This document shows, one piece after another, positions 7,092 through 46,852 of a DNA stretch of 64,000 nucleotides. The position numbers and the translations under genes were made by a program. The first letter of the stretch is position 1. Each line of letters opens with the position of its first letter. The DNA is from Burkholderiales bacterium (lineage in GTDB: Bacteria > Pseudomonadota > Gammaproteobacteria > Burkholderiales > UBA11063), in the NCBI GenBank assembly GCA_019748155.1, contig JAIEPY010000007.1, forward strand, positions 26,350-90,349. The letters are read 5' to 3'. The notes below the pieces were generated by a model that saw only the letters and a program-made list of their open reading frames with translations, made no database searches and was not told the origin of the DNA.

Positions 7092-7095
7092 GAAA

Positions 7096-13422: not shown

Positions 13423-13627
13423 AGCACATAAAGCTACGAAATCAAGCAACAAGCTGTTATTATTATATATTTTTATTTTACACATTGTAAATAATGTACT
13501 TAAATGTACCTATTTATACTTAACTTAGTCACTGAGTGACTAAAAAATAACAAGCATTAATCATTAAGTTTTTTTACTGAGAAAATTTAATCGTTGATGC
13601 TCTTTTTTATAGAAAGAGTATTATATC

Positions 13628-23015: not shown

Positions 23016-23222
23016 GATGATTTTCCTAGTAGAAAATGTTTTGTATCAATTATCTACCTTGTGGGTAGAGCTGGAGCTTGATACCACCGCTACTAGACGG
23101 CTGCTATTTATTTGGATATTCATAGCACTCCAACCCATTGGTTGGTGCAGAAAAATAAAAAAAGCCATTGAACAGTTGGCGCTGCTAGTAGTAAATTATA
23201 GGAGGTATCAATTCCTAGCGAT
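23016..23222 (-). ncRNA. C4-antisense-like structured leader 1
   Basis: TATAAT (revcomp 23223-23228), then distal/middle/RBS-proximal complementary segments at 23185-23211, 23078-23096 and 23025-23049. Confidence 0.75.
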
Positions 23223-23294
23223 ATTATATCACATTTTCTAAATATCACCACTTTCATCTACCAATAAAAAAAGCTACCCTACGGGTAACTTTTT

Positions 23295-23543
23295 TTAAAC
23301 TTCAACAGGTTTTTTAAATATTAATAACTTAAATGTTGCTTCTTCAGCTTTTTTATTAGATCCGCACCCTGGTTGCTGTACGGAAGTAATAGAATCAACT
23401 TGCACTAGCTCCCATCCATCAACTGCAGCAGCGTTTATAATATTTTCATACTCTTTAATTACAACAGCATGACTATTCTTCCCTGATTTCCCAGTGTGTA
23501 TTTCAACTGGGACATTTACACACTTATAAACATATTGAACCAT
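23295..23543 (-). CDS. DUF4177-like protein
   Basis: YKCVNVPV...INAAAVDGWELVQVDSI. Confidence 0.5.
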   Translation of the reverse strand: MVQYVYKCVNVPVEIHTGKSGKNSHAVVIKEYENIINAAAVDGWELVQVDSITSVQQPGCGSNKKAEEATFKLLIFKKPVEV

Positions 23544-23560
23544 TAAAACCTCCTTTAAAA

Positions 23561-23767
23561 TTAAGGTAAATCATCGCCACCATTAGGATATACACAACGT
23601 GCAATTCTATCTCGACCTTTACTAACCCCTTTAATAGCGCCAAATTTTTTTACTGATAAAATCATATATTCTGAACATGTAGGCTCAAATCTACAACGCC
23701 CACGATAACGATCTGGAGTAATTTTTTGATAACACCGAACAAAAAAAATGATGACTATTTTTAGCAT
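23561..23767 (-). CDS. YidD-like membrane protein insertion efficiency factor
   Basis: RCYQKITPDRYRGRCRFEPTCSEYMILSVKKFGAIKGVSKGRDRIARC. Confidence 0.85.
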   Translation of the reverse strand: MLKIVIIFFVRCYQKITPDRYRGRCRFEPTCSEYMILSVKKFGAIKGVSKGRDRIARCVYPNGGDDLP

Positions 23768-23819
23768 AATTGATATTATTCTTTATTCTTATTTCTTGGT
23801 CTCACTATATACGTTAAGC

Positions 23820-24059
23820 TTAGTGTACCATATATTTTAATAATCCAGCAATAGCTAAGATGGTTGCAAAACCAGTTCCCGCTATCCATTTGATTAATTC
23901 AAACTTTAATTCAGCAATTGTTTTATCTAATTTTTCATTAGTAACTAAATGGTTCTTTTGCTTTTCTTCAATATCAGTCACAATTGTTGCAATTGCCGTA
24001 ATTTGCTCATCATTAAATTTAGCGTCTTTTAATTGTTTGATGTAGTCAATAGTGTGCAT
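23820..24059 (-). CDS. Coiled-coil plus C-terminal TM protein (DUF1640-like)
   Basis: Coiled coil then WIAGTGFATILAIAGLLKYMV. Confidence 0.5.
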   Translation of the reverse strand: MHTIDYIKQLKDAKFNDEQITAIATIVTDIEEKQKNHLVTNEKLDKTIAELKFELIKWIAGTGFATILAIAGLLKYMVH

Positions 24060-24084
24060 GGCTTATATCCTCTTTAATAGTTAT

Positions 24085-24114
24085 ATTCTACCCTATCATA
24101 GCTCCTTATGTCAA
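24085..24114 (-). promoter_or_regulatory. Promoter TTGACA-N18-TAGAAT with shared ATGATAGGGTAGAAT spacer
   Basis: Same motif at 46817-46845 and 47709-47737. Confidence 0.65.
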
Positions 24115-24121
24115 CAAATGC

Positions 24122-24826
24122 TTAAATGACAGCAAAAAATTTGGCGACTTTTTTAGCTTCATCTTTAAAGTTTTTTAAAATTGTTTGACCTAAATATGCT
24201 GGATGTTTATTAATCACCGAAACATTAATGTAATGAAACCCTTTTATTGGAATTTCTTCGTACTCAACTTCACTCATGTATAATTTTTGTGTGCTAGGAT
24301 ATTGTTCACTTTGGAAAGATATTTCCGCTAAATTTTTGATTTTCGAAATACCTCGCCTAGTTTTGATTGAACCAATATAGTTACCCGTCAATTCAAATAC
24401 ATGTTCTGCGTATCCATCTACTTGACTACTCATTGCAAAATGATAATCATTCAACAACTCTTCATAATCTTCTACAGTAATAACAACTATGCTTTGTGGA
24501 TCATCCAAAATATCAATATTACGAGATAAGTCTCTTAATTCATAGTAGGCTCTGCGATACCCGGATAATTCAATAAACGTATCTAATTGATGATTAACAT
24601 TTAATAGCGAAATAACATCAATAAACTTTTGACTGCACCACTCATTCATATTAACTAAATCAGTCAAATCACCCATTAACAAAGCAATTCGATGCTTACA
24701 TAAAATATTTTTATTTACACTTCCTCTACAGCTACACTTAAAAGAAACTTCTCCATTATTTTCTATTAATCGTATATCATGAATAATTCCAGTACTCCCA
24801 CGCACTTTATATTCGTAATTTAGCAT
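24122..24826 (-). CDS. SWIM-zinc-finger-like protein
   Basis: FKCSCRGSVNKNILCKHRIALLMGD (CxC...CxH). Confidence 0.55.
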   Translation of the reverse strand: MLNYEYKVRGSTGIIHDIRLIENNGEVSFKCSCRGSVNKNILCKHRIALLMGDLTDLVNMNEWCSQKFIDVISLLNVNHQLDTFIELSGYRRAYYELRDLSRNIDILDDPQSIVVITVEDYEELLNDYHFAMSSQVDGYAEHVFELTGNYIGSIKTRRGISKIKNLAEISFQSEQYPSTQKLYMSEVEYEEIPIKGFHYINVSVINKHPAYLGQTILKNFKDEAKKVAKFFAVI

Positions 24827-24891
24827 AGCTCACTCCAAGCAAATAATGTATTTTACACCTAAATATTTGCTGATGTGTTCCATTTTGTAAA

Positions 24892-25392
24892 CTAACTCAC
24901 CACACCGTCACCTGACGTACCAGAAACCTGTTTACCATCACCATCTTTATACTCTCCAGCCTTATGCTGATGCTCAAGCCATGATTTACCGTTGATGATA
25001 ACCTCGCCATTCAGGTTAATCACTTCGGCATTGATGGTTGCTTCACCTTTGCAGTCTATCGTTAGCTTATGCTCTTTGCTGTCGTAACTAATTACCGTAC
25101 CATCCGGATAAGTAGTTGAATCAATATTTTCATCGCCTTCAGGAGGCAGGTCAACTTCGTTGTAGGTAAAGCCGAGCACTACACCATCCGATAACGATGG
25201 TGCGATTAATGCCACGACTGCCTGATCACCGATTTTAGGCAAATTACGTTCGCGGTTACGTGTGCCACCACCCGTCATAATCGGCAAATCTGAGCTTACT
25301 CCATCTTGGTCTGGGAATGTTACCCGACAAGTATGCTTTACTGCATTAACCGAGTAAACCTCACCCAGTTTAAAGATGTTATTATTTATCAT
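24892..25392 (-). CDS. Baseplate assembly protein V-like
   Basis: GEVYSVNAVKHTCRVTFPDQDGVSSDLPIM...IGDQAVVALIAPSLSDGVVLG. Confidence 0.9.
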   Translation of the reverse strand: MINNNIFKLGEVYSVNAVKHTCRVTFPDQDGVSSDLPIMTGGGTRNRERNLPKIGDQAVVALIAPSLSDGVVLGFTYNEVDLPPEGDENIDSTTYPDGTVISYDSKEHKLTIDCKGEATINAEVINLNGEVIINGKSWLEHQHKAGEYKDGDGKQVSGTSGDGVVS

Positions 25393-26575
25393 TGGCTAAA
25401 TCTCCTAAAACACGGTGGGCCGTGAAGCTGGTTCGGTAAGAACTACTACCAACTGAATGCGTGGTACTCTCAATATAGTAGCGTCCGCTAAACTGCCCAT
25501 AATCGACAATATCAACGGTAATCCCAGCCATCAGTGCCGGATTCCCCATCACATCACCGCTAATCACCCATTCGCCACGGTTCTTTTTCCTGAGTAATGC
25601 CAATGCAGTAGTCTCAGCCTCTTTTGCCGAATGAAATTTCTGCCGGATATTTAAAACCTTGCCACCACCATTAATATTAGCTTGGTCCAGATAGCTTTTG
25701 GTTGTCGTTGGCTCGGGCTTTTTCTTTGCAACAGTAGTATTTGGCTTATTGGCTTTATTTGGCGTATTATGCGTAGCTGTCCATTCTGAATTATCGGTTA
25801 AGGTAAATCGAGCCTTTTTATGGCTAACACTGGCAATATGTGTTTTTTTCTTGGTCGGGTCGTAGTATGAGGCTTTAGCTTCCTTATAAAGGTTAAAGCC
25901 TTGTGCGCCAGCTCGCCGGTTATTAATGTCATATTTACTGATCAGCAGCTGTGGTGGCTGATTTTCCAGTTCTTCACGGCTGAGAACATAGAGCGTATCA
26001 TCATCAATTTTAAGCATAAAATCATTATCATCCGCAAGCTTGGCTAAAAACTGTAAATCACTCTGCTCGGTCTGATCACAGACATTAAAGTCCACATCAT
26101 CGCCACTAAAGACCAGCTTCATTTGATTCCGACTAACGATAGCCTCACAAACGGTTTTTAAGGTAGTATGTTCCCATTTATTAGTATTTAAGACACGGCG
26201 AATATTGGAATTAAAGGTTGATACTGCCTTAATCTCAAATTTATTTGGCGGACCGGATTCAGTCACCAAGTCAATCTCAAAAACTCCACAATAGAGTTCT
26301 TCTTCGCTATCATTATCAGACCAGTTATAGCATTTGATGGATACTTCAATCTTATCACCACGTTCCGGCATCCAGTCGCTGACAAACAGCTCGGCGCGGT
26401 CATCAATGGTCAAGGTAATATCATCAACCTCGGTGCTGGTCTTATCGTTGAAATTATAGCTGGTTAGATAAGGTGCCAGATCAGCACTTACATTTTTACC
26501 AGCAATTTTGATCTCAACCTTTGCCTTCCGCGCGGTTTTTGCTGTATCTAACATAATTACCCTCTTTGCTTCCAT
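25382..26575 (-). CDS. P2 gpD-like late control / tail protein
   Basis: CDQTEQSDLQFLAKLADDNDFMLKI, position between V and X. Confidence 0.85.
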   Translation of the reverse strand: MEAKRVIMLDTAKTARKAKVEIKIAGKNVSADLAPYLTSYNFNDKTSTEVDDITLTIDDRAELFVSDWMPERGDKIEVSIKCYNWSDNDSEEELYCGVFEIDLVTESGPPNKFEIKAVSTFNSNIRRVLNTNKWEHTTLKTVCEAIVSRNQMKLVFSGDDVDFNVCDQTEQSDLQFLAKLADDNDFMLKIDDDTLYVLSREELENQPPQLLISKYDINNRRAGAQGFNLYKEAKASYYDPTKKKTHIASVSHKKARFTLTDNSEWTATHNTPNKANKPNTTVAKKKPEPTTTKSYLDQANINGGGKVLNIRQKFHSAKEAETTALALLRKKNRGEWVISGDVMGNPALMAGITVDIVDYGQFSGRYYIESTTHSVGSSSYRTSFTAHRVLGDLANDK

Positions 26576-26766
26576 GGTGGTAAATTAACCGCACTTTTAC
26601 TCGTCACAATTTCTGGAATGGTTAATACCACTCCGGCATCAAATTTAACAATATTACTGTAACGCTGGTTAGCATCTATCAGCTGATTGGCGTACATTTC
26701 AGCCCCCATCATCTTTTTGGCAATGGCATCCCACATATCGCCGTGCCTAGTTGTATAAGTTGTCAT
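26557..26766 (-). CDS. P2 gpX-like (LysM-like) tail protein
   Basis: TRHGDMWDAIAKKMMGAEMYANQLIDANQ...GVVLTIPE. Confidence 0.85.
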   Translation of the reverse strand: MTTYTTRHGDMWDAIAKKMMGAEMYANQLIDANQRYSNIVKFDAGVVLTIPEIVTSKSAVNLPPWKQRG

Positions 26767-28974
26767 TTAATATGCCAATCTTGAATCATACATTTTAGTA
26801 AAATTAGCTTGCTGTTCATTTAGTGCCTCCTGAATCATGCCCTTATCAGTATTACCAGTAATATTAAAGGTCTGTACCGGACTATAGCTGATGTTTTGTG
26901 CTGCTTTTAATGATGACATCTGTTTTTGTTGCTGGGTTGTCGCTGCTTCCAAATTACCGGCAAAGTGTTTTGGCTGGCTGATTTCATGGTTAATATCAAC
27001 CTTGAATGATTTACCATCATTACCGTCAAATAAAGACTTAACCGCACCGACTACCTTCATTACCGTATCATAAAAACCTGAAAGCATTGCCCAAGCTTTT
27101 TTTAGCCAGCCAACAAAATCATCCCAATGGGTACACGCCCAGTAAATCGCACCAGCCAAAAGCGCAATACCAGTAACTATTCTAAATACTGGATTTGCAT
27201 TCATCACCACGTTAACAATCCCTTGCCAATATGACATCAACTTAGTTGCCAGCGCCGCTCTAGTTTGTAGGGGGATAAACCACAGGAGCGCCTTAGTAAA
27301 TCCACCAAACAGTCCAGAGCTCAATAACATCACGGTATTAAATACCGAGATAGCAATTCGTGCAGAGGTAAAAGCTACCGATAATCCAGCGAGAGCAATC
27401 GCCGCTTTACCCATCACCAAGAAAGCCTCTTTATGTGCTTCAATATATGGGCGTATCGTTTGATTCAGCAAGGTATTCACATCTCTTATAACTTCATTGA
27501 TAGCTGGTAAAAATGTGTTACCGATTGTAATGGCAATTGCTGCCAGATTATTTTTAAAAAGCTGCAGGGAGTTTTCTGTAGTAGATGAGCGTGAGGCAAA
27601 CTCTCTCATCATACTGCCGGAATACCTGCTTTTATCACCTACCAGTTGAATATTGCCAATCACTTCCGGCAAATTATTCATCAGTCCGGCAATCGGTGCA
27701 ATTGATTCTTCACCAAAGATTTGCTTTAAAATTGGTGCTTGTTTTTCTGGTGCAAGCTTCTTAATTCGCTGCAGGACATCAATCAATGACTCCATACCGT
27801 TTGTCTGCATACTCTTACCAAGTTTAGCCACATTTATACCTAGCTGGTCAAATGCGTTAACCTGATTTTTAGTTGCTGCAGTTGATGAGGTTAAGGTGGT
27901 CATCATCTTCTTAATACCAGTAGCTGCTATTTCAGGAGCAACACCCGCCCCAATTGAAGTAGCTGCCAGCGCAGCTACCTGAGCCTCAGTTAAGCCCGCA
28001 ATCTTACCGAGTGCACCAATACGCGTAACAACCTCACCAATTTGTGCGCCACTGGCTGCAGAATTATCACTCAGAATATTAATCTGGTCTGCCAGCGCCA
28101 CCACTTGTTGTTGGTTTAAATGAAAGCCTGAGCGCCATTTAGCCATCATATCACCAGCAGCTTCAGCGCTGACATTATATGCAACCGCCATCTGTGCCGC
28201 ATTTTCAGCAAAAGCAATCAAATCCTTTTTTGCGATACCAGCCTGAGCTGCGGCAGCAGTAATATGTCCGAGTCCCTCCACCGCCATTGGCACACGGGTA
28301 GATAGATCTTTAATCTGATTACCCATCTCGGCAAACTCTTGCGGCGTATCAAAGTGCACAAGTTTACGAATATCCGCCATCACCGATTCAAACTTAATCG
28401 CATCCGCAATTGGTTGCTGCAAAAATGAGAAGCTCTTTTTTGCCATCATAATGTCAGTCGCCAAAAAGAAACGCTTTTGTGACTCCTGCTGCAGTCGCTC
28501 CGAAACCATGCCTCTAACCTGAGTCTTAGCCATTTTACTTTGCAGCTTTTCAGTACTGGCAGCCAGTTTATTTTGTTTATCAGCCAAATTATTAATGTCT
28601 AAGCCCGCATCTTTGATTTTTTGCCGATAGTTGGTTAAACGTTCAGATTCATAAGCATGAGCTTTTGCCAGTTTATCGCTGGCTTTTTGCGCCTGAGCCA
28701 AGGCTAACGCCATCTGTCTTGTTGGCGTTCCAATTCTGCCAATTTCCTGCGTTAACTCATTGACGCCTGCTTTGGCGTGATAGGCATCAGTACCCAGTTT
28801 GGTAGTAGTTGCCTCAACTTTTTTAAATTCTTCAATCAGCTTATTTTGTTTTGACAAATTACCCAGTTGATTTTGCATCAGGGTTAATTTATCTTTGGCA
28901 CTACCAAATGCCTTGGTAAATGAATTATTTATTTGTGCCTGAATCTGAAATGATACGTCATGAATTTTTGACAT
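26767..28974 (-). CDS. Tail tape measure protein
   Basis: 735 aa; TP901-type core (VMADIRKLVHFDTPQEF...AAAAQAGI...MAKWRSGF). Confidence 0.9.
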   Translation of the reverse strand: MSKIHDVSFQIQAQINNSFTKAFGSAKDKLTLMQNQLGNLSKQNKLIEEFKKVEATTTKLGTDAYHAKAGVNELTQEIGRIGTPTRQMALALAQAQKASDKLAKAHAYESERLTNYRQKIKDAGLDINNLADKQNKLAASTEKLQSKMAKTQVRGMVSERLQQESQKRFFLATDIMMAKKSFSFLQQPIADAIKFESVMADIRKLVHFDTPQEFAEMGNQIKDLSTRVPMAVEGLGHITAAAAQAGIAKKDLIAFAENAAQMAVAYNVSAEAAGDMMAKWRSGFHLNQQQVVALADQINILSDNSAASGAQIGEVVTRIGALGKIAGLTEAQVAALAATSIGAGVAPEIAATGIKKMMTTLTSSTAATKNQVNAFDQLGINVAKLGKSMQTNGMESLIDVLQRIKKLAPEKQAPILKQIFGEESIAPIAGLMNNLPEVIGNIQLVGDKSRYSGSMMREFASRSSTTENSLQLFKNNLAAIAITIGNTFLPAINEVIRDVNTLLNQTIRPYIEAHKEAFLVMGKAAIALAGLSVAFTSARIAISVFNTVMLLSSGLFGGFTKALLWFIPLQTRAALATKLMSYWQGIVNVVMNANPVFRIVTGIALLAGAIYWACTHWDDFVGWLKKAWAMLSGFYDTVMKVVGAVKSLFDGNDGKSFKVDINHEISQPKHFAGNLEAATTQQQKQMSSLKAAQNISYSPVQTFNITGNTDKGMIQEALNEQQANFTKMYDSRLAY

Positions 28975-29046
28975 AGTAACTTACCTAAACTTTCAAACAA
29001 ATCATCGTTATATGCTATAATTTTCTCCTAATTACAGGAGTTTGTA

Positions 29047-29268
29047 ATGACATTTATTTTAAGCTGCATTCTGGCAATTACTCTCATTGCGCTTAGTGTG
29101 ATGCTATTTGCACTAGTTGCACCATTTTTATTATTTATTGCTGGAATTCTTGGACTTATTTTTGTTGTTTACCCGGGCATTATTGCCATGAGAATACTTG
29201 ACTTTCTTAATCTCACCCGTAATAAAACTAAAAAACCACTCAGGTTATTAATTCCCAAGTGGCTATAA
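29047..29268 (+). CDS. Small two-TM membrane protein, opposite strand in tail operon
   Basis: Hydrophobic 73-aa ORF with upstream TTTACAGGAG-like RBS. Confidence 0.65.
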   Translation: MTFILSCILAITLIALSVMLFALVAPFLLFIAGILGLIFVVYPGIIAMRILDFLNLTRNKTKKPLRLLIPKWL

Positions 29269-29663
29269 TTTAGACTTTAACTCCAAATACTTGTTAAGCT
29301 TCCACACTGGCACGCTTTCCCAGTAACCTACAAAACCATGCTCTGATAATACTAAGCAGGCTGTTCTGAGTTGGTCGACCCGATTGACCCTAACAAAAAA
29401 CCCTGTACCGCATATTTTAATTTGATAAATTCACCAAGCGGCAATCCGTTATAAAATTCAGCCGGAAGCTTGGTCGCATTGATAATCAGCTGTTTGGTAA
29501 ATCCGGTTTCAGCTTCAATTAGTCCAGAAAATCCGGGATTGATGCTTTTATACTGACTCTCAGCCTTTTCATAATCCAGCGTGGTGATATTTTCAATATT
29601 AATCTCCAGCTCACTATATTCTTTACCGTTAAATTGATATGGTTTAGCAAATTTATGTTTCAT
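29263..29663 (-). CDS. Tail assembly chaperone gpE plus gpE+E' frameshift product (E stop at 29352; -1 shift at 29394-29400)
   Basis: In-frame slippery T TTT TTG; -1 frame continues ...VRVNRVDQLRTACLVLSEHGFVGYWESVPVWKLNKYLELKSKL*. Confidence 0.85.
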
Positions 29664-29837
29664 ACTTATTCCTCAATAACACAATTATTTAAATTCTTAT
29701 ATAACGAGCGAAATTTTTCGCTGGTTGGATAGTTTTATCTCGGCAACATCTCACAAAGCGTCAGCAATTCTGTCCAACCACTTCTCCACGCGAGCCAAAA
29801 ATTTGGCGGACGTTTCTTTGCATCGCCAACCAGCACT

Positions 29838-30359
29838 TTAAAAATAATCCCCAAGCTTTTTAACCAGTGCCCTGCCGGCAGCTTCAAAAATGCCATTAAG
29901 TTTATCAATTTTATATAATTGTTCACCATTAAGCTTAACTTCCAATGCCGTAGCTTCCAGTGTAAATGGAACGTTAAGCATATCATTCATTTTTAGGGTG
30001 CCAAGGTTAAACCCTTTGCAACTACCACGAACTGATATATACAAACCTTGACCATTTATAGTATGATCTGCAGAATCAACACCGTTAATAACTGCTTTAA
30101 ATTCGAGCAGCTTGTTATTGAGGTTTAACAGTCTAAATGCTGGCTGACTAACAGTATTAAACTTTACCTCCAGCTCAAGCTTTTCTACTGAGCCAGTGCC
30201 GGGTATCTCAATTTCACCGAGGACACCGGTACCTTCTAAAGTAATAGATTTAAACTTAACCTCGGGTAGCTTTACTTCTGCCACCCCCAGTAAGTCATAA
30301 CCATCAATATAAACCCGGTATTCACGGGTTTGTGCACCGATAAATGTAGAATCACTCAT
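29838..30359 (-). CDS. Major tail tube protein (P2 FII-like)
   Basis: EYRVYIDGYDLLGVAEVKLPEVKFKSITLEGTGVLGEIEIPGTGSVEKLELEVKFNT. Confidence 0.9.
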   Translation of the reverse strand: MSDSTFIGAQTREYRVYIDGYDLLGVAEVKLPEVKFKSITLEGTGVLGEIEIPGTGSVEKLELEVKFNTVSQPAFRLLNLNNKLLEFKAVINGVDSADHTINGQGLYISVRGSCKGFNLGTLKMNDMLNVPFTLEATALEVKLNGEQLYKIDKLNGIFEAAGRALVKKLGDYF

Positions 30360-30360
30360 C

Positions 30361-31800: not shown

Positions 31801-31819
31801 AATTTATCTTTCGTAAAAC

Positions 31820-32404
31820 TTATTTAAAAAATCCCTCAAAATCTCCAACGTTACCAGCTGGCATATCATAACGCCAAGTTGTGGTTAAGGTTAAGCTTGC
31901 CAGTGGATCCTGATCATTGTCATAAATCTGCCAATCCAGAGACGGTTGAAGCACATATGCCTGAGCTAAGACTTTGCGTGGTATTCGCTTTAACTGTTGG
32001 CGAATTAATTTATTTGCTAGTAATAAAAAACTGTATCTATTCTCCTGATTATATTCACTCACTAAAATCACAATATCAATCTTAGTTTCAGCGTAACTAG
32101 TACCATTGTCACTATCATCATCTTCACTGCCACCACTAGGTCTAATTATAATCGCCGGGTATAACGGTGTAGCATCAGGAGCAAACTGCTTGTCATCAGC
32201 TCTTATTCGCCTCAGCTCTGCTTTATCAGGTGTACGCTCAGGCAAATAATATTTATAAACTTTTGGTGTGGTTGACATTTCGGCAAGCGTTGGGCTTTCC
32301 GAGCTGATTTTGCTTAGCGTAAAACGGATATCTTTTACCCATTCAGTAACAGATTTTTGTAGCTGGATGACAAGACTAACCTCATTGGCTTCATGAATCA
32401 TCAA
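31820..32404 (-). CDS. Tail/completion protein (Gp37-like), hypothetical
   Basis: Position between sheath and minor tail protein. Confidence 0.5.
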   Translation of the reverse strand: MMIHEANEVSLVIQLQKSVTEWVKDIRFTLSKISSESPTLAEMSTTPKVYKYYLPERTPDKAELRRIRADDKQFAPDATPLYPAIIIRPSGGSEDDDSDNGTSYAETKIDIVILVSEYNQENRYSFLLLANKLIRQQLKRIPRKVLAQAYVLQPSLDWQIYDNDQDPLASLTLTTTWRYDMPAGNVGDFEGFFK

Positions 32405-33395: not shown

Positions 33396-33416
33396 TGCAC
33401 CTCCGATTAATTTAGC

Positions 33417-34586: not shown

Positions 34587-34591
34587 ATTCC

Positions 34592-36018: not shown

Positions 36019-36083
36019 AAATACCCCAATAAAGTACCGTTATGGGAATTCCCATAACGGAAAAACCGCCCGAAGGCGGCTGG

Positions 36084-36278: not shown

Positions 36279-36323
36279 TATTAACCCTTTCTTAAAAAAA
36301 AAGTTATTATAGCACTAATAAGT

Positions 36324-36440
36324 TTAAGACGATTCTTCAGCATTACGTAAATCGTTAAGGTTAACCCATTCCTCACCAGCAAAATCAGTTACGAAACGTA
36401 CTGGCTGACTACCAAAATATTCAACTCGCATTCTATTCAT
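36324..36440 (-). CDS. Mini BRO-N-like peptide 3 (38 aa)
   Basis: MNRMRVEYFGSQPVRFVTDFAGEEWVNLNDLRNAEESS*; ATGA overlap with antirepressor 2 stop. Confidence 0.7.
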   Translation of the reverse strand: MNRMRVEYFGSQPVRFVTDFAGEEWVNLNDLRNAEESS

Positions 36441-37576
36441 GAGGCTTTTCTTTCATTTAACTGGCGCTGGATTAAATTCACTGCCTCTGAAGAATAAAAA
36501 CACTGTTCAACTTCTTTGTTACTATACTGTGATTTACTTAATCTGCGTTCGCATAAATCGGAATCATCTTTCAATTTCAACAAATTAGCGATTCTGCCGA
36601 CCATATTTGCAGAAGTTCCCAGTTTTTCAGCAATTTCTTCAGCACTAAGTCGGTGCTCAATCGTGGGTAACATAGGTTCAACCGGAATACCAACTAGCTC
36701 ATGCAACAAATTTGCCCGCGCTACTTGTTTACTGTTATCATTCAATTTCATTCGGTCAATCATTTTATCGGCATAACTTAAAAATGAGGCATTGATTGCT
36801 TTGGTGCGCTCTTCAGTTTTAACAACGGGTTTAGTCGCAGGGTGTTCAATTGCAACGCTGCCCTTAGTCATGAGTTCTTCAACCCACATATCGACTTGAA
36901 CGGCAAATTTAGCATTACACCATTGAGCAACACGAATAGCAACTTTAGAATGCACCCATGTACCCTGACGTTTACCACCTTGTTTTACAATGACTAAATC
37001 CGTTACGGGAATTCCCGTAACGGAACTTAACTCTTCTAAATACTCTTTCGTAGTTTGAAGTCTTAAAAAATCATTAATTTTTTTATCATTAGCAACAGCC
37101 ATTTCTGTAGCATTAATTAGATTATGATTACCTAACTCAAAGCTAATAGGTTTTTCATTATATTGTTTAGTAATAATTTCATGTTTCATGATAGCATCCT
37201 TTTTAAAATTATCATGGTTAAATTCTAATTGTGGCTTAGTAAATAATGGTTGGAGAGTGTTTTTTACAAATTCAAGTATGTGAGAAACATATTTAGTTTC
37301 TGGCGCATTAACGATTAGTTCCCCAATTTGTGGAATACTAATAAAAAAATCTTCTCGTGGAGCAAAACCTTTGCAGTTGGTATACTGACGTAACATTGGC
37401 TTAGATAGCGCTGCTTGCACAGACTCTCTTGTGTATCCTAGATGCAGGAATATCGGATAAGCGATAACCAGCTGTTTTTCAGTATCAACAAAGGTGAAAC
37501 AGTTCAGAAGATTCGTCATAACGTGCTCTTTGGACGTTTTGGACGGTTTTATAGCCATTGGCAGTTGTTTAGTCAT
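36437..37576 (-). CDS. Antirepressor 2 (shared N-domain + KilA-N + HTH C-domain)
   Basis: NLINATEMAVANDKKINDFLRLQTTKEYLE...GTWVHSKVAIRVAQWCNAKFAVQVDMWVEEL KilA-N. Confidence 0.9.
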   Translation of the reverse strand: MTKQLPMAIKPSKTSKEHVMTNLLNCFTFVDTEKQLVIAYPIFLHLGYTRESVQAALSKPMLRQYTNCKGFAPREDFFISIPQIGELIVNAPETKYVSHILEFVKNTLQPLFTKPQLEFNHDNFKKDAIMKHEIITKQYNEKPISFELGNHNLINATEMAVANDKKINDFLRLQTTKEYLEELSSVTGIPVTDLVIVKQGGKRQGTWVHSKVAIRVAQWCNAKFAVQVDMWVEELMTKGSVAIEHPATKPVVKTEERTKAINASFLSYADKMIDRMKLNDNSKQVARANLLHELVGIPVEPMLPTIEHRLSAEEIAEKLGTSANMVGRIANLLKLKDDSDLCERRLSKSQYSNKEVEQCFYSSEAVNLIQRQLNERKAS

Positions 37577-37779
37577 GATGATTTCCTATCAGAGAAAGTG
37601 TACTAGTTACCTACCTTGTGGGCAGGGCTGGAGTTTAGTACCACCGCTGATAGACGGCTGCTATTTATTTGGATATTCATAGCACTCCAGCCCATTGACT
37701 TTGAGCATGGAAATAAAAAAAGCCTTTGAACGTGGCTAACGCTATCAGTTAAATAAAGGAGGTACTAATTCCTGAGCGA
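37577..37779 (-). ncRNA. C4-antisense-like structured leader 2
   Basis: Same architecture as leader 1 with different, co-varying pairing segments (37742-37768, 37635-37653, 37586-37606). Confidence 0.75.
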
Positions 37780-37832
37780 TATTATATCATGACAACAAAA
37801 AACCCACTGATATTATTCAGTGGGTTTTATGC

Positions 37833-38045
37833 TATAATCCTCGCCTGCTCTTCGCGCTAACCTCTTAATGGTTGGACGCCTGAGTGGTTAGTGCTTTCCG
37901 GGCAGAGAAAGGAGAGTACTATGAAAAAACTGGAAGCTATGATTGTTGTAATTTCTGCCATTACTTCAATTATTAATTTAGCAAACCAGCTTATTCAATT
38001 AATCAAATTGACTAAGTAGTTTTTTGCCACCCTTCGGGGTGGTTT
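37833..38045 (+). ncRNA. Small peptide module A: extended -10 promoter, structured leader, 32-aa ORF, terminator
   Basis: TGCTATAAT; nested inverted repeats in leader; CCACCCTTCGGGGTGGTTTTTTT terminator. Confidence 0.7.
37921..38019 (+). CDS. Small hydrophobic peptide A
   Basis: MKKLEAMIVVISAITSIINLANQLIQLIKLTK*; paralogue at 47564. Confidence 0.75.
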   Translation: MKKLEAMIVVISAITSIINLANQLIQLIKLTK

Positions 38046-38141
38046 TTTTCTCACAATATTATATCACACTTTCTAAATATTGCCGATTTCAATAATTCAA
38101 CTAACTCAACATCACCCAAATCTGAATAACTTCTTTATACT

Positions 38142-39701: not shown

Positions 39702-39702
39702 A

Positions 39703-39942
39703 TTAACCTCGTGGCACTGCAGTTACAATCCTCATATACGACCCCAGATTATTTTCTAACTGAGATATTTCAATCTCAATGTCAATAATTGCCTGTCGTA
39801 CTTCTGAATAATTGGCTCTGGTTAATGTCCGATTGCCAATTACATATGATTTAGCCTGACTTAGTGCCCGGCGGGCTGCACGCCACTGTGCCAGATCCTC
39901 CCGCCGCTCATCAAGCTCAGCCTGTATATTTTTTTTGCTCAT
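39703..39942 (-). CDS. Head-tail joining gpW-like
   Basis: 79 aa between portal and terminase; IDIEISQLEN. Confidence 0.7.
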   Translation of the reverse strand: MSKKNIQAELDERREDLAQWRAARRALSQAKSYVIGNRTLTRANYSEVRQAIIDIEIEISQLENNLGSYMRIVTAVPRG

Positions 39943-39953
39943 TACTAACTACC

Positions 39954-41792
39954 TTAATATAGTTTAATTCCAGAAGAGATTAGATTTTCTTCACCATCTG
40001 CATCATCATCGTCGTCAGTTTCAAATTGTTGATTGGCTAACTGCTCTTTGATATACTCCAGATTAGGCGCAGCCATCTCATATGCAGCCAAAGCATAGAC
40101 AAAAGTGTCGAGTGCCTCGTTGCGGTCACGAATTTTTTTCCAGACAAAGCGCTTGACGCCATGCTTCAAGTCTAAAACCCGCCGCTCGGAATTCAGCTGC
40201 TTATAATATTCATCACCACACCCATGTGTAACATCTAATGGAAAATGAATATAGTTTTTACCTTTAGTATGATTACGCAGCCGAGAATAAATCACAGCCT
40301 TAGCCGCATCCACTCCAACCTTCATAACTTTAGTATGGGTTCGGTTTTTAGAGGACGGATTATTTATAATTGGAATACCTTCGCCACCAAACCCCTTTAC
40401 AGCCGCCACCCGAAGATGCTCACGTGGTGTAGTGAATTTGTAAACCCGATCTGCCAAATAACCTGAATCGACACAGCTGGCACCGATTGGTAATTTGCGC
40501 CCATCAGGAAGAGAATACCCGCGGCAGATTACACCATCCAAACTATCCCAAACCTCATCCTGTTCCGGATTACCCAAGATCATTTGATTAGTAATTACCC
40601 AACATTGATTATTTTCTCCCCAGCCAATAATTTGGTATTCAAGACGATTATCCTGAACATCTACTCCACAGGTTAAATATAAAACGCCATCTGGTAACTC
40701 AGCGTTATATACCTGCTTATGGCTTTCCAATAACGCGATATCTAAATCTTCAACTATTGCCTCAATAGGCTCACCGAGTTTTAGATTCAGAAATTCCTGC
40801 ATCTTCTCGTTACCTTCTGAATCCCCAATCTCAAGATATTCTTTTGCCAGCTCATGAAACTTAACCCATGGCGAATACAAGCTTGAGATATGAAATCCCG
40901 GCATTGTCTTGTGCTTGGCGGTTGCTATCCACTTACCGTTTGCCAATAATTCAGATTTATGTTTATCCATAATATGAAAATAGCACGCGGGACATTCGAG
41001 AAATACCGAATCAATAATTAATTCACCCTTATCATCAAGCTCCCATTTCACTTGCTCCCAGTTAAGCACGAACTCATGACCGCAGTCTGGACAAGGTACG
41101 TGATAATAACGCTTGTCGCTTTTTTCGAATAGCTCGACAATTTGAGATGTTTCTTTAATGGTTGGAGTTGAGATTGCTAAAATCTTGCGATTCCAGAAGT
41201 TAGTTGTACGCTGTAACGCCAGTTTGAATGGTGCCCCTTCTTTCTTTAGAGCCTCCAGAAACCTATCTATCTCATCGGCAATTAATATCCGGATTGCTTT
41301 ACTTGATAGCTTGGTTGGACTTTGCGCACCATAGATTGCTAGATACCCCGATGTAAATTTTTTTAGTTCGATAGTATTGTCACTGTCCTTGCTATTTGAA
41401 AATAAATTACGTAATACAGGTGTTGCCTGAATAGTTGTTTCTATCCTTGTCTTGGAGAAGTCGTTTGCCATACCATCAGTCGGCATCAAATACATTATCG
41501 GTGATGGATCCTCCACCATATAATAACCCATAATATTTAATGCAATTTCAGTTTTACCGACCTGAGAACTGGCCATTACAACCACCATATTTTCAGGAGA
41601 ATTAAATACGTCCATAATCTCGCGGGTATATGGTGCTCTGGCAGTTTTCCAGCGTCCGGGCTCAGGACCAGTTCCACGTGCGATATACCGAAACTGGTCA
41701 GACCACTGACTGATGCTTAAACGTGGTTTTGGCTTAAATGTTGCCAGTGTCTGCCGATATATCTTCCTCATTTGATTGTTCATTATATTCAT
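39954..41792 (-). CDS. Terminase large subunit (lambda gpA-like)
   Basis: VVVMASSQVGKTEIALNIMGYY, YLMPTDGMANDFSKTR, RILIADEIDRF. Confidence 0.95.
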   Translation of the reverse strand: MNIMNNQMRKIYRQTLATFKPKPRLSISQWSDQFRYIARGTGPEPGRWKTARAPYTREIMDVFNSPENMVVVMASSQVGKTEIALNIMGYYMVEDPSPIMYLMPTDGMANDFSKTRIETTIQATPVLRNLFSNSKDSDNTIELKKFTSGYLAIYGAQSPTKLSSKAIRILIADEIDRFLEALKKEGAPFKLALQRTTNFWNRKILAISTPTIKETSQIVELFEKSDKRYYHVPCPDCGHEFVLNWEQVKWELDDKGELIIDSVFLECPACYFHIMDKHKSELLANGKWIATAKHKTMPGFHISSLYSPWVKFHELAKEYLEIGDSEGNEKMQEFLNLKLGEPIEAIVEDLDIALLESHKQVYNAELPDGVLYLTCGVDVQDNRLEYQIIGWGENNQCWVITNQMILGNPEQDEVWDSLDGVICRGYSLPDGRKLPIGASCVDSGYLADRVYKFTTPREHLRVAAVKGFGGEGIPIINNPSSKNRTHTKVMKVGVDAAKAVIYSRLRNHTKGKNYIHFPLDVTHGCGDEYYKQLNSERRVLDLKHGVKRFVWKKIRDRNEALDTFVYALAAYEMAAPNLEYIKEQLANQQFETDDDDDADGEENLISSGIKLY

Positions 41793-42303
41793 GCTGTAAA
41801 TTATATAAATCGGTTAATATTTCATTCATTGAATCATCTAATGCATATTGAATCTCGGTAGCGCTTAACCCAACTAAGGTTGGTGCAATCTTGCTTGGTA
41901 AATTAATTAGCTCATTACGCACAATTTCGCAAACACCAACCACAACCTTACAAACATCATCAACAGCAATTAGATTACCCTGCATTTTTTTCAGATTGAC
42001 TTTATGGATATCACCAAGTACATTTTCTTTTTTATATTTAGCATTCAGCAGATCCTGCATTGTAACGTTAGGGTTATCAGGATCAACACCATCTGACTTT
42101 GCCAGTTCACCTGGAGCAAAAACTTCAGGCGTGACTTTTGTGTTAGGTAACCCAATTCCACTTTTAATTAGGTGATATGTCCGCTCCGCATCCGGCATAA
42201 TCAATTTTTTACCTTGGTGAGGCAGTTTATTTTTTAATTGCGAAATAGCAGATGCTGAAACGCCCATTTTTTTAGCAAAATCAGCTTGTGATATTAGAAT
42301 CAT
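41734..42303 (-). CDS. Terminase small subunit (Nu1-like)
   Basis: SQADFAKKMGVSASAISQLKNK HTH; upstream of gpA. Confidence 0.8.
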   Translation of the reverse strand: MILISQADFAKKMGVSASAISQLKNKLPHQGKKLIMPDAERTYHLIKSGIGLPNTKVTPEVFAPGELAKSDGVDPDNPNVTMQDLLNAKYKKENVLGDIHKVNLKKMQGNLIAVDDVCKVVVGVCEIVRNELINLPSKIAPTLVGLSATEIQYALDDSMNEILTDLYNLQHEYNEQSNEEDISADTGNI

Positions 42304-42312
42304 AGTTTACTT

Positions 42313-42801
42313 TCAAAATAGTCGTTGTTGAACTTCGCTCAATACTTTGTTGAGCCTAAACTGTGCTGCGCGCTTTTGTTTTTTTTGAATGGCTCCAGCC
42401 TGCCCCCAAATACTACCATTATTTTTCAATCGCTCTATATCATCATATGCAAATTTTAACCTAGCCTGATAATTATCTAACTCTAATGCTTTGCGGACAA
42501 TTTTTTGTCGCTGCTTAACTGAATAACCAGAAGTCACGATTAACGTTAACTCTTTATCTAGATAAATCATGGATATATATCCACGCTTATCATAATCAAC
42601 ACTAACATATTGTTTTAATTGATGGCTCAAATCTGAGCCATCTTTTTTAATATCATAAAGCTCACATAATATATTTACAACGTCACGAATTACATTCTTA
42701 TGCAGCTTTCCAGTCAGCTCTGATATTTCCTTACTCGACATAGTTGCATGCGATTCCAAGTGTTCTTCAAGTTTAATTAATTGCAATTTACAATTCTCCA
42801 A
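42313..42801 (-). CDS. Rha-family phage regulatory protein
   Basis: MSSKEISELTGKLHKNVIRDVVNIL...LTLIVTSGYSVKQRQKIVRKALEL. Confidence 0.8.
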   Translation of the reverse strand: MENCKLQLIKLEEHLESHATMSSKEISELTGKLHKNVIRDVVNILCELYDIKKDGSDLSHQLKQYVSVDYDKRGYISMIYLDKELTLIVTSGYSVKQRQKIVRKALELDNYQARLKFAYDDIERLKNNGSIWGQAGAIQKKQKRAAQFRLNKVLSEVQQRLF

Positions 42802-43382
42802 TGAAAAAGCCCCGGCATAACCGAGGCTTCAAAAATTAAGGCAATATATTTTATGTAATATATTGATAAATTTAAATATTACTCAACAAGTGCAAAAATG
42901 CTACAAAATAAACTTAAGGCAAACTTAAGGCAATTTTGAAACTTTGCAACTAGCGAAATCCCGCGAGTGTTCCACCCGTAAAGATTTATATTTCTCTGGG
43001 AGGACCCGCCGATTTTACTAAGTAAACAATCCAATAAAAAAGCCCCACGCAATAACTGCATGAGGCTTCCATATAACTAATACACATCAATAACATAACA
43101 ACGAAAAAAGCCCCGATATTCTCGGAGCTTTTCTATACGTACAACTGTTTCAAGTATGGGAATTATAGCTAAATTGTGCGCCAGTGTCAAATTTAATTAA
43201 AAATGTCGGTAAAGTATCAATTTACCGTACTTATGATATAATCCCTGTGTTTATTAGGTTGACACATCCCCTAATAAAGATAACAACACGCATCAAACAC
43301 GACAATTACAACTGCATTTCAGTATGTTATAAAAGAATATTCTTTTATACTTATTTTTATACTTTTTTTAAAGTAATCGAAA

Positions 43383-44554
43383 TGCCAAAGATAAAATCAA
43401 AACTACTCACTAAACAAAATATCAATGACTTTACGCAAGAATCATTATTTGGTTCATCTCTCCATGATGGTCATAACTTATACCTATTCAAAAACAAGCA
43501 TTCATGCGTATGGAAGCTGCGAACACAAAGCAGGATAGGTAATAAAACACAGTTCAGCTGGAAGCGAATTGGTGACGCCCGCGATATTACCCTAAGTAAA
43601 GCAAGAGTACTGGCGGATGAGATGCGCGATCTAATACGCCAAGGCATCAACGTCCATACTCATGGGAAAGAGCAAAGCAAGCTGGGCAAGACATTTGGTG
43701 CTGTAGTTAGCATCTATATTGATTCATGCAAACGCTCACTTAAACCACAATCCAAAGTAAAATTGGTTGCCGTACTGAATAAAGCGGCTATATTGAATAG
43801 TGCGATTATCTCCAAAATTAGCGAAACAGACGTTGCCTCTGTCATTGACCGAGTGAAACATAAATCACCATCAACTGCAGCAACTTTACTCCGCGAGATA
43901 AAAGCAATATTTAGGTTTGCCTATGATGAGAAATATATCATGCAAAAGCTTGAGATAAATATAAAAGCCAGATATAAAATAAATGTCCGCACGCGATATT
44001 TGAATGAAAAGAAATTGGGTGGATTATTTAAGAATTTATGGAGTGATAATAATACGCCAGTAACAATTAAAACAGCTATTTATGCTCTGTTTATCACCAT
44101 GCTGCGCCGCGATGAATTGCTTAGTCTGGAATGGTCTGATGTTGATCTGGATAATCAAAAAATCACCGTGAGAAATGCCAAGCGCATAGACAATTTTATT
44201 GTCCGCATACCTCTTCAGTTAGTACATAAATTGGGGGAGTTACGGCAAAAATACCCAGCGACAAAATATGTATTTAACTGTCGCGAAGGTCGCTATAGTG
44301 GCGATACACTATGCCGCTACTGTAAACAACTTGGTGAGAGATATGGAATTGGTGAATTTACGCCCCACGATGCAAGACGTACTGGAATGACTCTATTGGC
44401 TGATAATAACCACAGCTACAAAGTTATTGATATGGCATTGGGTCATGTCCAAAAAGGCGTAAACAAATCATACCTCAAGACGCACCTCAGCGAACCACGC
44501 GCCAAACTGCTGCAGGATTATGCAGATCTCATTGATTTATTGATAAGCAAGTAA
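43383..44554 (+). CDS. Tyrosine recombinase, P4-type integrase (second integrase)
   Basis: DUF4102-like N-terminus, MLRRDELLSLEWSDVDLD, HDARRTGMTLLADN, GHVQKGVNKSYLK; track ORF start 43184 probably too early. Confidence 0.85.
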
Positions 44555-44629
44555 AGCACAACAATTATTTACATTGACAAATACCCTACTAATTTAGTAC
44601 ACTATGTAAATATTTATGGAGATAAGTAA

Positions 44630-44767
44630 ATGAAAATAATACTAGCTTGGTTTGCAAAACTATTTTCTGGCTGGTTTTGCAACTCAACCTGTAAAACTAA
44701 ACTGGACCAGAAGGAGCGCGATAAAATTATCAAGCTATCCAATAATGTTGATATGGATGAATACTAA
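44630..44767 (+). CDS. Small hypothetical protein (45 aa)
   Basis: MKIILAWFAKLFSGWFCNSTCKTKLDQKERDKIIKLSNNVDMDEY*; promoter TTGACA-N18-TACACT and terminator hairpin. Confidence 0.6.
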   Translation: MKIILAWFAKLFSGWFCNSTCKTKLDQKERDKIIKLSNNVDMDEY

Positions 44768-44813
44768 GACTGAATAACCCACCATTGTTGGTGGGTTTGT
44801 TTTTACTCAATCG

Positions 44814-45146
44814 TTAATGTCCATGAGATTTCTCATATTGATTGACAAACTCCAACAGGACATCATTAATTTTAGTCTGATATTTTTTACTATGCTGCTT
44901 AAAAAAAGTCACAATCTTAGGGTCAAGCTTTAATGTTACCGGGATTTTATCCGGATCTTCTGACTTCAATGCTTTAGTTAATGCATCAAACATCATTTTA
45001 TCAGTAATCACCGTCTTTTCGTTAGCATCTGGATATAACTTTTCCCAGCCCTTAGTCTTACTCATATCAGGAATATCAGAATAATCAATACTCTCATCAG
45101 GTATTGCCGCTAACTTTTTTAATTGTGCATCTGTCATTTTATTCAT
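44814..45146 (-). CDS. brnA: BrnA-like antitoxin
   Basis: DYSDIPDMSKTKGW...VTLKLDPKIVTFFKQHSKKYQTKINDVLLEFV. Confidence 0.85.
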   Translation of the reverse strand: MNKMTDAQLKKLAAIPDESIDYSDIPDMSKTKGWEKLYPDANEKTVITDKMMFDALTKALKSEDPDKIPVTLKLDPKIVTFFKQHSKKYQTKINDVLLEFVNQYEKSHGH

Positions 45147-45414
45147 TATAATTCACCTTATCCCTTCCCGCTGGACGGGCTGAAATTAAACGGATATTAC
45201 CATTACGCTCAGTAAAGGCAACTAAAATAATTAGCACACCTCTAACTTTACCAATTAAATGAAATCTTTCCTCTGTACCAACTATCCAGTCAAATTTACG
45301 TACCGCTTTGGGATCTCTGAATGCTTCAATGGCAGTTTCAAAATCAATACCATGCTTTTTAATATTTACATGATTCTTATTATCATCCCACTCGAATTTC
45401 ATTAACGACCCCAT
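45139..45414 (-). CDS. brnT: BrnT-like RNase toxin
   Basis: KFEWDDNKNHVNIKKHGIDFETAIEAF...RLISARPAGRDKVNYNE. Confidence 0.9.
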   Translation of the reverse strand: MGSLMKFEWDDNKNHVNIKKHGIDFETAIEAFRDPKAVRKFDWIVGTEERFHLIGKVRGVLIILVAFTERNGNIRLISARPAGRDKVNYNE

Positions 45415-45473
45415 TCATTATGCTAACACCATTATAGCCTGATTATTGTAGATTGTCAATATAAATAACAATA

Positions 45474-45620
45474 TTAATTTATTGTTTTATTACCGGCATG
45501 CTCAATCATCGTTAGATCACAGGCATCACGCAAATCCTGCACACAAACATAATCCAGCCCACTATCATCAGTAAGATAACGCACCGGATTGCTCCCAAAA
45601 AACTCAGTTCTTTTTTTCAT
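45474..45620 (-). CDS. Mini BRO-N-like peptide 4 (48 aa)
   Basis: MKKRTEFFGSNPVRYLTDDSGLDYVCVQDLRDACDLTMIEHAGNKTIN*; overlaps antirepressor 3 stop. Confidence 0.7.
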   Translation of the reverse strand: MKKRTEFFGSNPVRYLTDDSGLDYVCVQDLRDACDLTMIEHAGNKTIN

Positions 45621-46563
45621 TTTGTTTGTCCTTTAATGCTTGTTGAATCATATTTACCGCCTGATTATTATAAAAATGTACGATTACGTCTTTTTTTGAC
45701 CGTTCTGAGTGCGATAGCCGCGCCTCACTGTAATTCTGATTGCCACGAATCCCCAATTTGCTGATAACATGCCCGATTGCTTGCGGTGAAACATTCATCC
45801 GCGAAGCGATTTGGGCTGGCGATAACTTTTCATCACGAATTACTGGCAGCATTAACTCCAGCGGCAACCCGGCCTGTTCATGCAGCAAATGCGCTTTCAA
45901 TACCTGACGGCTTTCGGCACTGAGCTGCATCAAGTCAATTTGTTTGATGGTAGTTTGTAAGAATGCCGCGTTCTGCGGTTTGCTGGTTTGCGGTCGTTCA
46001 ATCTGGTGGTGTGACATAGTTGGTGGAATTGTCTGCGGTTGGTAATTGGTTAACCCTCCGCGCCGATGTGCCTGCCATTCCCGAATAATAGCATGGCGTT
46101 GCGGTATTGAGTAACCAGAGGTTAAAGTTAGAGTTAATTCTTCGTTGAGATTATAGCAAGGTTTTTCACGTTTATATGCGTCTAAATAGATGGACGCAAA
46201 ATTGCGTTCATCTATATTTAGCTGTTCTAGCATGTTTTTTATATCTCGAATAATGTCAGCATGTCGTTTACCAGTTAATTGTGCAATCTCCAGACTGCTC
46301 ATAGTTTCAACATTAGTTCTTAAATTGAGCACATCTATATACTGGCGGCCAAACTCTTCGCAAAACCCTCTTAAATACTTTTCTTTAACATAAGTTTGCT
46401 CGTCAATTGTGACAAAGGCGGTTGAACCGTAAGTATAGCCAATCTCAAAGATTGCTATATCATAGCACTCCAGTATATTTACCGAAATTAGGCGTTGTTT
46501 GGGGTTGATGGTGATTGTTCTATTATTGAATAGAATAACTTTATGATCAGGTATATTAGACAT
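45604..46563 (-). CDS. Antirepressor 3 (Rha domain + HTH C-domain shared with antirepressor 2)
   Basis: SSLEIAQLTGKRHADIIRDIKNML...LTLTSGYSIPQRHAIIREWQ; C-domain VRF.QAVNMIQQALK like ORF 36437. Confidence 0.85.
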   Translation of the reverse strand: MSNIPDHKVILFNNRTITINPKQRLISVNILECYDIAIFEIGYTYGSTAFVTIDEQTYVKEKYLRGFCEEFGRQYIDVLNLRTNVETMSSLEIAQLTGKRHADIIRDIKNMLEQLNIDERNFASIYLDAYKREKPCYNLNEELTLTLTSGYSIPQRHAIIREWQAHRRGGLTNYQPQTIPPTMSHHQIERPQTSKPQNAAFLQTTIKQIDLMQLSAESRQVLKAHLLHEQAGLPLELMLPVIRDEKLSPAQIASRMNVSPQAIGHVISKLGIRGNQNYSEARLSHSERSKKDVIVHFYNNQAVNMIQQALKDKQNEKKN

Positions 46564-46816
46564 GATGATTTCCTGGTTAAAATTGTTTTGAATTACTTAC
46601 CAAACAAGTTTTGAAGTGTGAGGTAAGGCGGGAGTTCAAAACACCGTAACCAGACGGCTGGGCTTATTCCCTTTGCAGGTATTTTATTCGCCCCTCCCGC
46701 CATTGTTTTAAATGAACTTTCAAAGTTCACCTATCTAATGCGCAGGCATAAAAAAAGCCATGTTTTGCGGAATAGGCTGCACCGCTGGTTAAAGGAGTTT
46801 TGAAGTCCTAGCAGTG
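46564..46816 (-). ncRNA. C4-antisense-like structured leader 3
   Basis: Pairing segments at 46785-46804, 46635-46653 and 46573-46592; promoter TTGACA-N17-TAGAAT (46817-46845). Confidence 0.75.
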
Positions 46817-46852
46817 ATTCTACCCTATCATGGCTTTTTTGTCAATTAACTG

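Follow-up and report, generated by a model that had tools for sequence, protein, structure and literature searches.

Why would a single prophage carry three anti-repressor genes, each behind a long leader in which two matching segments flank a third that is their reverse complement? The question is raised by a 64,000-nucleotide stretch of DNA (hereafter the window) from a Burkholderiales bacterium (assembly GCA_019748155.1, contig JAIEPY010000007.1, positions 26,350 to 90,349 of the forward strand), where an earlier sequence-only reading had placed three such leaders on the minus strand and attributed them to the C4 antisense RNA of phages P1 and P7. All three leaders are present where that reading had put them. 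Comparison with related loci indicates that each is very probably a self-addressed antisense switch on its own anti-repressor. The middle RNA is of a different family, however, namely sRNA-Xcc1 (RF02221), represented by copy 3 itself and by diverged short forms in copies 1 and 2. Two further additions to the earlier account are a terminator-like hairpin between the upstream target and the RNA, and the finding that the arrangement is widespread.

In the direction of transcription, each leader contains an upstream target consisting of words a1 and b1, a terminator-like hairpin, an RNA domain, and a second target, a2 and b2, at the ribosome site of the gene. Written as upstream target / RNA / ribosome-site target on the minus strand, the words are TTGATACC..CTACTAG / CTAGTAG..GGTATCAA / TTGATAC..CTACTAG in copy 1, TTAGTACC..CTGATAG / CTATCAG..GGTACTAA / (c)TAGTAC..CTGATAG in copy 2, and TTCAAAAC..TAACCAG / CTGGTTA..GTTTTGAA / TTCAAAAC..TAACCAG in copy 3. 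The segments given in the sequence-only reading are correct for copies 1 and 3; in copy 2, the word a at the ribosome site is shorter than claimed. The features of the three loci are as follows, where R2 is a covariance model of the family described below.

Copy 1 (Bro-N)
23223-23231, minus strand: extended -10 promoter TGATATAAT, read from the sequence, identical at copy 2 and at the related locus L157
23204-23211, minus strand: upstream target a1, TTGATACC (word match)
23185-23191, minus strand: upstream target b1, CTACTAG (word match)
23157-23182, minus strand: terminator-like weak hairpin plus T7, between b1 and the RNA (fold; under the 5-bp stem rule of the scan)
23061-23136, minus strand: antisense RNA domain, short sRNA-Xcc1 variant (R2 28.7 bits, E 0.0026 genome-wide; fold)
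23090-23096, minus strand: RNA loop, CTAGTAG
23078-23085, minus strand: RNA single strand, GGTATCAA
23043-23049, minus strand: target a2, TTGATAC (word match)
23026-23032, minus strand: target b2, CTACTAG, abutting the Shine-Dalgarno sequence GGAAA (word match)
21858-23015, minus strand: anti-repressor of the Bro-N/Ant type (Pfam Bro-N 2.3e-19; PHROG anti-repressor 7e-40)

Copy 2 (KilA-N)
37781-37789, minus strand: extended -10 promoter TGATATAAT, read from the sequence
37761-37768, minus strand: upstream target a1, TTAGTACC (word match)
37742-37748, minus strand: upstream target b1, CTGATAG (word match)
37715-37738, minus strand: terminator-like weak hairpin plus T7 (fold)
37618-37693, minus strand: antisense RNA domain (R2 31.6 bits, E 4.5e-4 genome-wide)
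37647-37653, minus strand: RNA loop, CTATCAG
37635-37642, minus strand: RNA single strand, GGTACTAA
37586-37606, minus strand: ribosome-site targets, a2 (c)TAGTAC (TAGTAC at 37600-37605) and b2 CTGATAG (37586-37592)
36437-37576, minus strand: anti-repressor of the KilA-N type (Pfam KilA-N 1.7e-19; PHROG anti-repressor family match)

Copy 3 (Rha)
46817-46845, minus strand: promoter TTGACA-17-TAGAAT (11 of 12 consensus positions)
46797-46804, minus strand: upstream target a1, TTCAAAAC (word match)
46785-46791, minus strand: upstream target b1, TAACCAG (word match)
46750-46779, minus strand: terminator-like hairpin plus T7 (fold)
46619-46701, minus strand: antisense RNA, sRNA-Xcc1 (Rfam RF02221 61.3 bits; R2 70.8 bits)
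46647-46653, minus strand: RNA loop, CTGGTTA
46635-46642, minus strand: RNA single strand, GTTTTGAA
46608-46615, minus strand: extra copy of word a, TTCAAAAC, within a CTTACC..GGTAAG hairpin (46605-46618) directly 3' of the RNA
46573-46592, minus strand: ribosome-site targets, a2 TTCAAAAC (46585-46592) and b2 TAACCAG (46573-46579)
45604-46563, minus strand: anti-repressor of the Rha type (Pfam Phage_pRha 7.7e-13; PHROG anti-repressor 1e-17)

An extra word-a hairpin after the RNA, in addition to the word a near b2, is also found in many units of the genus (including L165, L167, L169, L170, L178, L179, and L187), and a2 of P1 occupies the place of this hairpin in copy 3.

Complementarity was scored as an ordered two-word match, in which word a has to pair with the 3' single strand of the RNA and word b, after it, with the hairpin loop. 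The upstream match comprises 15, 15, and 15 bases in copies 1, 2, and 3, and the downstream match 14, 13, and 16 bases. In dinucleotide shuffles of the same stretches (2000 each), the observed values were reached 0, 1, and 2 times upstream and 3, 2, and 1 times downstream, so that the complementarity is better than in shuffled leaders, in agreement with the sequence-only reading. When the words were exchanged among the three copies, the match dropped to 0-9 downstream and 0-11 upstream. Whole-duplex energy, tried as a swap test, was good on average and was dropped for the two-word match because the constant GCCG/CGGY stem blurs it. When the intact RNA was cofolded with the target leaders, the differences were small (-1.5 to -4.6 kcal/mol) and did not separate cognate from non-cognate pairs; this counts neither way, since the calculation leaves the own fold of each RNA largely intact.

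The words change together. Copies 1 and 2 share about 95% identity in their first 100 codons, and their genes are 97% identical at the nucleotide level in the first 60 codons, after which different effector domains follow. In their RNA domains, 4 of 15 pairing bases have changed, as have 4 of the 61 other bases, and every change at a pairing base is mirrored in both target copies, bearing out the claim that the three segments vary jointly. Copies 1 and 2 thus look like the products of a duplication followed by recoding. A sister prophage in genome G370 has the same gene order and carries two of the three switches at equivalent sites, that of copy 3 beside the integrase gene and that of copy 1 within the tail region, with different words at both. 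The copy 2 gene sits as an insertion between the portal and head-protease genes, a place at which the sister prophage has no counterpart.

To which family does the RNA belong? The C4 model (RF01695) has no match in the window (Rfam scan) or in the 2.67-Mb genome from which it derives, nor in the copy 1 region at E <= 10, nor in 12 family loci at E <= 1. The C4 family name used in the sequence-only reading is therefore wrong, and C4 identity is ruled out. Copy 3 instead matches sRNA-Xcc1 with 61.3 bits against a gathering score of 53 (Rfam scan of the window); in the own genome, the RF02221 search finds copy 3 only, and copies 1 and 2, which lack the apical stem of the family, fall under the gathering score. 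R2 was built from 25 family sequences that exclude copies 1 and 2 and include copy 3, L157, and one other short form. Searching the 2.67-Mb genome with it returned exactly three places, namely copy 3 (70.8 bits, its own seed), copy 2, and copy 1. An intermediate form is provided by L157, from a sister prophage of the same genus (contig JAIETT010000085.1; the locus as on G370:C2), whose gene start and outer helix are the same as those of copies 1 and 2 and whose core is nearer to sRNA-Xcc1 (R2 53.7 bits, itself an R2 seed). The isrK (RF01394) and c4-a1b1 (RF03163) models match P1 and have no match to the window leaders or the family loci tested, and R2 does not find P1 C4.

The 19 pairs of the family fold are spread over a closing helix, a short inner arm topped by an internal loop (AAUA..AAUA) and apical stem, and a hairpin that presents the complement of word b (b') in its loop. 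It was derived from sequences trimmed to the closing helix (alignment A3); the untrimmed alignment A1 gave only the loop hairpin because MAFFT misplaced the closing helix. Of the alignment cells, 97.2% are paired, and 10 of the 19 pairs have changed on both sides, which none of 500 shuffles equaled; sliding the partner columns by 1-3 positions left only 37-49% of the cells paired. The three window RNAs, folded alone, each adopt the family fold.

The same anatomy is found far beyond this prophage. Of 369 genomes in a sample of the class, 26 carry RF02221, and 110 stretches came from viral contigs searched by pattern. More than 100 loci, from phages as well as bacteria, show the order a1, b1, hairpin with T-run, RNA, a2, b2, and ATG, e.g., in Haemophilus phage Aaphi23 (annotated ant gene), Acinetobacter phage 4316 (KilA-N), and Pasteurella phage Pmp3 (anti-repressor Ant). 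Among the 144 loci whose upstream match is at least 12, 122 have a terminator-like hairpin separating b1 from the RNA, compared with 28 once the stretch is shuffled. An ATG follows b2 by 4-20 nucleotides in 117 of 127 loci with a downstream match. In 102 of 114 non-redundant loci, b2 overlaps or directly adjoins a purine stretch resembling a Shine-Dalgarno sequence.

Targets follow the words of their own RNA. For the genome set (44 RNAs plus controls), upstream matches of at least 12 were obtained for 80% of the cognate pairs and 7.7% of the non-cognate ones, and downstream matches for 57% and 3.9%, respectively. With the same threshold, 79 non-redundant viral loci gave 85% against 7.8% upstream and 73% against 5.6% downstream, and the cognate sum exceeded all 10000 permutations. 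The within-genome test covered 13 genomes with at least two copies (up to ten), comprising 43 cognate and 154 non-cognate pairs and excluding L022 and L023 (weak RF02221 matches without targets); matches of at least 13 occurred in 88% of cognate and 3.2% of non-cognate pairs upstream and in 74% and 1.3% downstream. One 2.3-Mb genome of the same genus (G383) carries ten switches (L167, L178, L182, L184, and L186-L191), mostly preceding short genes of unknown function, and all of their word pairs are different. The variation is concentrated in the loop, with an entropy of 1.8 of 2 bits per position, compared with 1.4 in the loop-closing column and at most 0.8 in all other parts. The 144 parsed RNAs have 108 distinct word pairs and 93 distinct loop words, counts to which partly related loci and a few loops parsed too long contribute. 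Among 124 downstream proteins, Pfam matches (several per protein possible) were Bro-N (23), KilA-N (16), P22_AR_C (10), Rha, AntA, and ORF6C (8 each), SymE (6), P22_AR_N (5), and ORF6N (3); many of the remaining proteins are short and unknown.

Matches also occur in Escherichia coli phages, several of them Stx-converting. A plasmid search with a symE locus gave no match. At some loci, tandem units lie about 250-285 bp apart (L064:7043-7321 and L085:2024-2391); the first unit has no gene of its own, yet retains everything from the upstream words to the RNA, terminator included; its words are different. Such first units may be orphan switches or remnants of lost genes.

One close precedent is C4 itself. 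P1 has the same plan of a1-b1, terminator, RNA, and a2-b2 at the ribosome site of an anti-repressor operon, and its antisense words are likewise displayed in a hairpin loop and the adjoining single strand inside a closing helix. The P1 record annotates a1, b1, c4, a2, and b2 in the identical order, and P1 scores in the two-word test. All three copies show the C4 hallmark, two RNA words that are complementary both to a1-b1 upstream and to a2-b2 at the ribosome site, and the position of the copies upstream of Bro-N, KilA-N, and Rha genes suggests control of anti-repressors. The architecture, the control principle, and the distinct specificities proposed by the sequence-only reading are thus well supported. 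The prophage differs from P1/P7 in having three copies and in its inner arm, an AAUA..AAUA loop plus apical stem where C4 has a short hairpin. Heteroimmunity between P1 and P7 operates through c4 and already shows that the words can differ; specificity differences as such were therefore already known. In P1, the c4 RNA acts on ant mRNA, where it prevents translation around the ribosome site (summary in PMC12197685). IsrK, the terminated leader of Gifsy-1, renders the read-through mRNA translatable by binding to it (PMC4825925). The IsrK system (RF01394) shares the terminated leader RNA with upstream words and the read-through mRNA of an anti-repressor operon as its target (PMC4825925), and differs in that the regulated frame is orf45, coupled to anrP. 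The isrK-like layout of upstream words and then a terminator is present here, with weak stems in the window copies. The P4 CI RNA, compared by description only, is also an antisense RNA flanked by complementary sites, seqA and seqC (as described in PMC4825925), but it acts on transcription termination of replication genes.

We propose a mechanism in which one promoter would produce a transcript that opens with a1 and b1 and would often end at the terminator just downstream. The read-through transcript would continue into the sRNA-Xcc1-type domain and then into the anti-repressor gene, with a2 and b2 across its ribosome site. The predicted fold would display word b' in the hairpin loop and word a' in the neighboring single strand, and the domain, probably excised as a stable RNA of 75-88 nucleotides, would pair with a2 and b2, block anti-repressor translation, and thereby keep the prophage silent. 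The short terminated a1-b1 RNA would compete for the domain, as IsrK does in Gifsy-1, and would set a threshold for release. With the parts in the same order as in P1 and Gifsy-1, we infer the antisense block and leader decoy by analogy; processing and insulation in the cell would complete the scheme. Since the words of each copy differ, the three anti-repressors would be separately held and released, and a resident phage would silence only incoming phages with the same words.

Several points weigh against this reading. In this host, the switches are known from their sequence alone, although anatomy, complementarity, covariation, family membership, and word diversity are all directly legible there. 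The promoters of copies 1 and 2 consist of the extended -10 only, with no -35 box by a simple -35/-10 scan, and the terminator stems of these copies are weak, about 4 bp by folding. In the minimum-energy fold of the whole leader, a1-b1 pairs with the middle segment and the ribosome site is free, so that repression would need processing or action in trans; this fits a decoy or trans arrangement, and minimum-energy folds of long RNAs are weak evidence. The score windows of the two-word match were set after examples had been viewed, the permutation tests overstate independence because the loci share descent, and L007, L009, and L035 are family matches without clear targets. Finally, the copy-3 RNA on the copy-1 ribosome-site target is predicted to pair at -13.2 kcal/mol, compared with -15.3 kcal/mol for the cognate RNA.

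This last value bears on whether the switches are functionally separate at all, or whether the words have drifted neutrally in locked pairs while the RNAs act on each other. We consider such cross-action improbable. The remaining cross-pairs are predicted at -4 to -11 kcal/mol, against -15 to -18 kcal/mol for cognate pairs, the changes between copies 1 and 2 fall disproportionately on pairing bases despite 95% identical coding starts, and non-cognate downstream matches within genomes stay at 1.3% with up to ten copies. The insulation proposed by the sequence-only reading is supported by calculation only, and is imperfect. A more serious competitor, though still the less likely one, is transcription attenuation as in P4 CI: the middle RNA would pair with the upstream words and act on the adjacent terminator, the copy at the ribosome site being secondary. 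The frequent terminator-like hairpin after b1 speaks for it, the P4 order seqA/CI/seqC equals the order here, and the IsrK authors themselves raise the possibility (PMC4825925). The placement of b2 against the Shine-Dalgarno stretch, a median of 9 nucleotides before the ATG, is needed only for translation control.

Two other explanations fare worse. Published HrpG/HrpX control and many predicted targets (cited in PMC12189769 and PMC12444791; PMC2996969) would make sRNA-Xcc1 a trans-acting virulence RNA with many chromosomal targets, its placement here being incidental; this is very unlikely, given that at most loci both exposed words match and covary with both adjacent leader copies, and that a conserved set of remote targets is incompatible with a hypervariable loop. 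That the words are DNA operators of a phage repressor, with RNA pairing as a by-product, can be given hardly any credence. Two direct copies and one inverted copy of a word do resemble the repeated sites bound by repressors, but the words lack internal symmetry, comprise more than 90 loop variants, keep a fixed distance to the ATG, and, without exception, occupy the loop of a covarying RNA fold and the single strand next to it.

The genomic setting agrees with the claim that all three switches reside in one prophage, which is enclosed by a direct repeat:

13396-63681, strand not applicable: prophage, ~50 kb, with a 28-bp direct repeat at its ends, enclosing all three switches

The repeat copies lie at 13396-13423 and 63654-63681, the latter within a tRNA-Ser gene (att core), and the phage genes include those for terminase, portal, capsid, sheath, tape measure, and DnaC. 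There are two integrase genes, one at 62429-63586 adjoining the tRNA-Ser att site and one at 43184-44554, found at the same place in the sister prophage with 88% identity. Two BrnA-type antitoxin-like proteins (44814-45146 and 53140-53529) were recognized by eye. At 37921-38019 on the plus strand, a frame for a 32-residue hydrophobic peptide (MKKLEAMIVVISAITSIINLANQLIQLIKLTK), preceded by GGAGAG, has the appearance of a type I toxin or of a small membrane peptide; within the same insertion lie a 12-bp terminator and a duplicate of the copy-2 promoter (38058-38086). Left of the prophage, positions 32-10763 resemble a defence island, judged by eye, with a large helicase-methylase fusion, an OLD-like nuclease, and a DarT/DarG-like macrodomain pair. 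A group II intron RNA (41.9 bits) lies at the contig end (63928-63997, minus strand).

For sRNA-Xcc1 itself, the founding member is an 88-nucleotide RNA that was cloned and end-mapped in Xanthomonas (PMC2996969). Xylella has seven copies, all of them in RNA data and five in tandem in an island (PMC12189769), and copies in integrons lie upstream of symE (PMC12444791). The family has been published as a trans-acting virulence RNA under HrpG/HrpX control (cited in PMC12189769 and PMC12444791; PMC2996969), a regulation and role reported for Xanthomonas only. The Xanthomonas and Xylella data support a stable middle RNA for the family, though not for this prophage. We found no paper linking sRNA-Xcc1 to C4-type a1-b1/a2-b2 targets, in a literature coverage that did not extend to the 2011 sRNA-Xcc1 paper. 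What is new is the family identity, its breadth, and the presence of several private switches in one genome.

On balance, we favor the view that sRNA-Xcc1 is a second widespread C4-type lineage, in which a six-base loop word serves as an open-ended address (more than 90 loop words, and up to ten non-interfering switches per genome). In this view, the switches act on genes for anti-repressors and SymE toxins and on unknown genes, they determine superinfection specificity, and the virulence role assigned to the RNA in plant pathogens is a misreading. A curated RNA family of unclear function thereby gains a concrete, testable job at more than 100 loci, as a private antisense switch on the next gene. 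This may explain the presence of sRNA-Xcc1 before symE in Xanthomonas integrons and the clustered copies of the Xylella island, for both of which a virulence or host-directed role is currently discussed. With their many matched antisense pairs, some of them co-resident, the loci also lend themselves as a natural collection to studies of how specificity diversifies without cross-talk, and they offer a possible basis of heteroimmunity in phages beyond P1 and P7.

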